33,795 bases of DNA, taken from an uncultured Chthonomonas sp. Lineage in GTDB: Bacteria > Armatimonadota > Chthonomonadetes > Chthonomonadales > CAJBBX01. Made by a program: the position numbers and the translations under genes. How positions within the stretch are numbered: position 1 is the stretch's first letter; the number at the start of each line of letters is the position of its first letter. The stretch spans positions 1 through 33,795 of the forward strand of contig CAISJD010000128.1 in NCBI GenBank assembly GCA_903885605.1. The letters run 5' to 3'. Under the pieces are notes generated by a model. That model was not told the DNA's origin and searched no databases. It saw only the letters and a program-made list of their open reading frames with translations. This document shows positions 9,172-13,139 of the stretch, in pieces.

Positions 9172-12732
<3,561 letters not shown>

Positions 12733-12825
12733 CACGATTGCCCTTTCTGATCCGGCGCTACCCAGGCCCTAGTGCCCGAGCAGACCCGTGTGTGATAAGT
12801 CCGTGCGCCCACCGTCAGCGCAGAC

Positions 12826-13031
12826 AATAGAAAAGGGATGCCCGCTTAAGCGGACATCCCTATCGTGTTCTCGAAAGCCACTACATTGCCGAGGGTAACG
12901 GGGAGCGGACATGCCGGCCCGAGAGCCTGCACGCCACACGACCATTTCACCCGCTTGAGATGACGGCGCGTTCGCTCAGCCGCGAAGGCCGTCCCGGCGC
13001 CCCATTTGCAAATCACGTAGCGACCTCTTCG
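12826..13031 (-). ncRNA. Candidate structured small RNA, about 205 nt (6S-like layout)
   Basis: On the - strand an extended -10 (TGCTATACT, 13045-13037) would start transcription near 13031, and an intrinsic terminator ends it near 12827. Between them the 5' segment 13027-13017 pairs with 12884-12874 over 11 contiguous pairs (four G-U). After a small internal loop, TTGC (13011-13008) pairs with GCAA (12889-12886). Inside are plausible local hairpins, e.g. CAT-C-TCA pairing with TGA-A-ATG around a 6-nt loop. A long closing stem plus a 3' terminator hairpin resembles 6S RNA, but no family-specific motif was confirmed. The overlapping 111-codon - strand frame has no gene-like features. An alternative is a long leader or attenuator for the PFOR gene that starts at 12732. 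Confidence 0.4.
12827..12861 (-). terminator. Intrinsic terminator/attenuator hairpin upstream of PFOR
   Basis: AGGGATG (12834-12840) pairs with CATCCCT (12855-12861); after one mismatch the stem continues as the perfect palindrome CCGC-TTAA-GCGG (12842-12853). On the - strand the hairpin is followed immediately by TTTTCTATT. It lies about 95 nt before the PFOR start, so it either ends a separate upstream RNA or acts as an attenuator. Confidence 0.65.
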
Positions 13032-13036
13032 CAAGC

Positions 13037-13045
13037 AGTATAGCA
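13037..13045 (-). promoter_or_regulatory. Extended -10 promoter for the candidate small RNA
   Basis: TGCTATACT on the - strand matches TGn followed by a 5/6 match to TATAAT. No clear -35 is present, as is usual for extended -10 promoters. Confidence 0.4.
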
Positions 13046-13077: not shown

Positions 13078-13107
13078 CTGAACGGCACCGAGCCCCGCAG
13101 GTATACT
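13078..13107 (+). promoter_or_regulatory. Probable promoter of the hpnCDE operon
   Basis: A -10 hexamer TATACT (13102-13107) lies 18 bp after a weak -35 candidate CTGAAC (13078-13083). Transcription would begin near 13114, just ahead of the GAGGAG ribosome binding site at 13123-13128. It is divergent from the small-RNA promoter about 60 bp away. Confidence 0.35.
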
Positions 13108-13139
13108 CGGCCAGACGCAACCGAGGAGCCCACATTCGG

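Follow-up and report, generated by a model that had tools for sequence, protein, structure and literature searches.

The window analysed here, a stretch of 33,795 nucleotides, comes from the genome (211 contigs) of a Chthonomonas-like member of the Armatimonadota. A gene for pyruvate:ferredoxin/flavodoxin oxidoreductase (PFOR; TIGR02176 match) on the minus strand and hpnC (TIGR03464 match) on the plus strand start divergently in it, and a compact unit oriented toward PFOR is located between the two starts. PFOR connects glycolysis with ferredoxin-dependent metabolism. The original prediction, which left the strand unstated, considered this unit to be a small structured RNA similar to 6S RNA, a new RNA, or an attenuator-containing long leader of PFOR. 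All the elements that it named were found, on the minus strand (table 1): the extended −10, the closing stem of 11 pairs with a continuation of four pairs (13031–13028 with 12875–12872), the local hairpins, and a 12-pair intrinsic terminator followed by the U tract TTTCTATT. The unit length of about 205 nt was also confirmed.

Table 1. Features of the PFOR leader region, in positions of the window, from the promoter to the PFOR gene
Feature	Position	Strand	Basis
Extended −10 promoter TGCTATACT	13037..13045	minus	10/10 family PFOR genes have TGCTATAAT/TGCTATACT or a similar element in the same position
Putative PFOR leader, assumed start to terminator end, ~200 nt	12834..13030	minus	Conservation in the genus; start-to-stem spacing
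Shine-Dalgarno-like AAGAGG of the candidate leader ORF	13024..13029	minus	Sequence; invariant in three species
Candidate leader ORF: GTG, 56 codons, TAA in the terminator loop	12846..13016	minus	No excess of synonymous changes
Closing stem, 5′ strand	13015..13025	minus	No change among three species; pairing not clearly better than chance
Closing stem, 3′ strand	12876..12886	minus	Pairs with 13025–13015
Intrinsic terminator (putative attenuator) hairpin, 12 pairs, loop TTAA	12834..12861	minus	Stem invariant in three species; counterparts in four other genera
T-rich terminator tail	12826..12833	minus	Sequence
Spacer to PFOR, with Shine-Dalgarno-like AGAAAGGG at 12747–12740	12733..12825	minus	~90% three-way identity
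PFOR (pyruvate:ferredoxin/flavodoxin oxidoreductase)	9172..12732	minus	ATG 12732–12730; one in-frame TGA inside

The transcription start near 13030 is an assumption, placed 6 nt after the −10 hexamer. The 5′ strand of the closing stem overlaps the start signals of the candidate leader ORF, taking in the end of the Shine-Dalgarno-like sequence and the GU of the initiation codon. The terminator (−22.3 kcal/mol, a value that none of 100 shuffled leader sequences reached) lies about 100 nt ahead of PFOR, and no match to a consensus sigma-70 promoter was found in the spacer between them.

Some features of the flanking genes were recorded as well. On the plus strand, a conserved TATACT within CGCAGGTATACTCGG (13095–13113) probably serves hpnC as its −10 element, in a promoter facing away from the PFOR leader. 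The in-frame TGA of PFOR (10641–10636, minus strand) falls on the cysteine position of the CIQ-C-GKC ferredoxin motif, and the frame is open in congeners. Selenocysteine at this codon was rejected: selA was not found when sought in this connection, and the search for tRNA-Sec gave a tRNA-Ser as its best match, which makes a nonsense mutation or an assembly error likelier. Finally, the first 30 codons of PFOR (12732–12640, minus strand) have unusually conserved fourfold sites, with 18/18 identical in pairs within the genus, approximately 13/14 in the close pair G008/G010 and approximately 10/12 in G009/G011, compared with about 0.27–0.94, mostly 0.35–0.8, in later stretches of the gene.

The arrangement ahead of PFOR was followed through 12 genomes of Chthonomonas-like Armatimonadota, ten of which contain PFOR. 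In all ten, a −10 element resembling TGCTATAMT (in the form TGTCATAAT in G008 and G010) precedes the gene, with the assumed start 248–361 nt upstream of PFOR. An intrinsic terminator follows in nine cases, G006 being the one without it. The stems of these nine terminators, which come from five genera, begin 164–174 nt after the assumed start, a nearly fixed distance, and their distance to PFOR ranges from 28 nt (G004) to 159 nt. Their energies lie between −14 and −38 kcal/mol and were matched by 0–2 of 100 shuffles. Among the genomes examined outside the family, no terminator-containing leader was seen before PFOR. Near the PFOR start, blastn gave a match to G030 (L005), which was dropped, as it is short and inside apparent coding sequence.

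The gene on the other side of the leader is not constant. It may be hpnC, a pentapeptide-repeat protein, an ECF sigma factor, a PALP enzyme, an MFS transporter or a Cys/Met PLP enzyme, and PFOR is the only constant neighbor of the leader across genera. The promoter and the intrinsic terminator lie upstream of PFOR in the same direction, and in nine of the ten family genes this arrangement is kept with PFOR and not with the neighborhood. Since the upstream gene differs among genera while PFOR stays, the leader seems to be PFOR's own cis leader. The 28 nt of G004, which leave no room for a separate promoter, together with the missing terminator of G006, are most simply explained if the leader promoter serves PFOR. 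The predicted promoter and terminator, their nearly fixed spacing and the cis linkage to PFOR are thus well supported by the comparison of sequences.

Within the genus of the window, the stretch bounded by the −10 and the T tract shows 93–94% pairwise identity among three species and the leader body 91–92%, compared with approximately 70–78% at the fourfold sites of PFOR and 60–70% at those of hpnC; the upstream intergenic part varies between 57% and 86%. In the G008/G010 pair, the stretch of the leader ORF has two differences in 156 nt, against 23% at fourfold sites. The leader is therefore far better conserved than fourfold sites, both in the genus and in this pair. Between genera, alignment of the leader bodies fails outside the promoter and the part right before the terminator, and a search of 41 genomes with a covariance model built from the three genus species recognises those species only. 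Four genera (L093, L095, L096, L105, and L099) have a GCUAAG-like stretch about 5–20 nt ahead of the terminator, where it often forms a small hairpin, for instance UAGC-AAA-GCUA. The terminator stems of G010 and G008 (L099 and L100) carry one change per arm (GGGCGC..GCUCCC vs GGUCGC..GCGCCC), which move one mismatch while the strength of the stem stays similar.

The structural character of the unit was examined by comparison with shuffled sequences. The whole unit including the terminator folds with z = −2.6 in the window, a value that derives mainly from the terminator, because the fold without it is ordinary: z = −0.8 in the window, roughly −0.8 to −1.3 across the genus (three species) and +0.1 to −1.8 over nine leaders. 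The expected number of closing pairs was reached by 3% of the shuffles in the window and by 17–30% in most leaders besides that of the window, the congeners among them at 20–30%; for G009 the figure was 98%. Within the genus, pairing between the Shine-Dalgarno region and its partner strand has a P of about 0.25. AUGYCCGCU could act as an antiterminator by pairing with the 3′ arm of the terminator; the three species give P values of 0.25, 0.035 and 0.075 for this duplex, and no antiterminator pairing was significant against shuffles. The covariation term (alifold, three species) was 0, as the pairs hardly vary. Neither the closing stem nor the fold as a whole is therefore clearly above chance, with no stability beyond that of shuffles and no covariation. 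In consequence of the near-chance fold, the weak P values of stem and antiterminator and the absent covariation, a structured aptamer is possible but not supported.

As regards coding potential, the original statement that the gap has no good ORF is doubtful, since an ORF led by a Shine-Dalgarno-like sequence begins at +15 and ends within the terminator loop, but it shows no coding constraint. In several genera, likewise, a frame runs open to the terminator. The original prediction had counted a conserved protein-coding frame here among the findings that would speak against it; the frame is open, but with no sign of coding constraint. The ORFs of this kind that begin in the first 66 nt have their stop −11 to +19 nt from the start of the stem in the genus of the window, G007, G009, G011 and G008/G010, while G004 fails a strict test for a stop at the terminator. 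The position of the ORF start differs in G009 and G011. An ORF stopping at the terminator occurs with a frequency of 0.02–0.14 per leader in shuffles; the product of these frequencies over the leaders is small, which is only suggestive because the criteria were set after the data had been inspected. Changes in the ORF within the genus are mostly non-synonymous, and the comparison of G009 with G011 shows no third-position excess. Codon usage is unlike that of PFOR; the ORF frame has the best codon score of the frames in most leaders, though the scores are below zero. The leader peptides show no convincing homology across genera, the four tested matched no NCBIfam family, and there is no codon run for one amino acid shared among them, for which reason amino-acid attenuation was rejected.

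We consider that the feature is, with somewhat better than even likelihood, a leader at the 5′ end of PFOR mRNA that carries a transcription attenuator and occurs family-wide in these Armatimonadota; in this form the long leader of the original prediction is supported. RNA polymerase would start at the extended −10, transcribe a leader of about 170 nt and meet a strong intrinsic terminator approximately 100 nt before PFOR, so that PFOR mRNA would be made only by the polymerases that read through. The production of PFOR would then probably be decided after transcription has begun, and we infer that termination at the leader is regulated.

For the switch itself, the geometry of ORF stop and hairpin, taken together with attenuation of PFOR, makes coupling to the ribosome the likeliest solution, which we hold tentatively. 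A ribosome on the leader ORF would reach the stop in or at the hairpin and mask its 5′ arm, and the polymerase would pass. If translation lagged or was not initiated, the terminator would form and PFOR would stay off; the Shine-Dalgarno region can pair in the closing stem, and leader translation may thus fail to start. It is somewhat doubtful, in its full form, that a fast-changing leader ORF couples PFOR to translation, with the stop in or at the hairpin and the distance from start to terminator being kept instead of the sequence.

The E. coli pyrBI attenuator has a similar order of a promoter, a leader ORF (a candidate one in the PFOR leader) overlapping an intrinsic terminator and a structural gene shortly downstream, also with no run of regulatory codons. 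It differs in operon, phylum and sequence; a UTP-sensitive pause is known for none of the leaders described here, and dependence on translation is putative in them. The leader-peptide attenuators of trp, his and ilv share a leader of 150–200 nt, the usual length in amino-acid operons, with a Shine-Dalgarno-led ORF, in the PFOR case a candidate, and a terminator, whereas the PFOR leader has no regulatory codon run or supported antiterminator. In pyrBI the terminator is located within the leader ORF, a leader gene of 135 bp (PMC4824070). An intrinsic terminator is suppressed by ribosomes positioned at, or close to, a stop codon a few bases ahead of it, and this suppression is lost once translation is uncoupled (PMC4824070). 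The stop codon of the candidate ORF in the PFOR leader overlaps the terminator, in contrast to amino-acid attenuators, whose stop codons lie >20 bp before it (PMC4824070).

Other readings of the unit have to be weighed against a cis leader. A stand-alone small RNA of about 200 nt, acting in trans from its own promoter and terminator while PFOR is transcribed from another promoter, would agree with a complete transcription unit that has a strong terminator, with its nearly constant length in five genera and with strong short-term conservation of nucleotides free of a coding pattern. We nevertheless regard it as unlikely: the unit follows PFOR through the changes of the upstream gene, no promoter consensus lies between terminator and PFOR, where G004 has 28 nt only, and G006 has no terminator. 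Moreover, neither folding nor covariation supports the new structured RNA that had been envisaged, and no Rfam family, riboswitches included, matched the locus at gathering scores; a search with permissive E values gave only weak, chance-like matches to the terminator. That the unit could be a second 6S RNA is extremely improbable. Its length, long closing stem and strong promoter are 6S-like, yet there is no 6S match here even at E up to 10, nor any match to RF00013 in the related leaders, and the predicted fold is branched, not a single long hairpin with a central bubble. A 6S candidate of this genome is located on another contig (L001 1501–1681, G000 contig C196; 34.4 bits, under the Rfam cut-off); the family genomes, with one exception, likewise have a candidate elsewhere, several of them above the cut-off. 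The 6S genes of this family score low in general.

The two other alternatives concern what lies between promoter and terminator. A switch in which a folded aptamer or RNA-binding protein, and not the ribosome, controls the attenuator would be compatible with the attenuator half of our explanation. It would account for conservation at the level of nucleotides, third positions included, in the genus and in G008/G010, for the closing stem and hairpins that are invariant in the genus and for the possible antiterminator (P 0.035–0.25). With z values of +0.1 to −1.8 once the terminator is removed, no informative covariation, no riboswitch match and no conservation between genera, we judge it rather unlikely. 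A functional small-protein gene upstream of PFOR, closed by an ordinary terminator, would explain the open, Shine-Dalgarno-led frame of most leaders; the dominance of non-synonymous changes, peptides that cannot be aligned between genera and the lack of a protein family match make it quite improbable. A PFOR leader with an attenuator stays the preferred reading, with the ribosome as the likeliest, though tentative, switch.

In a literature search covering few subscription journals, no published report of PFOR attenuation was found, nor any work on RNA regulation in Armatimonadota. The putative attenuator architecture is new for a PFOR gene, its general kind being already known. If the attenuator is real, its geometry would be maintained in this family while its sequence turns over, and searches based on sequence or structure, such as Rfam, would miss attenuators of this sort.
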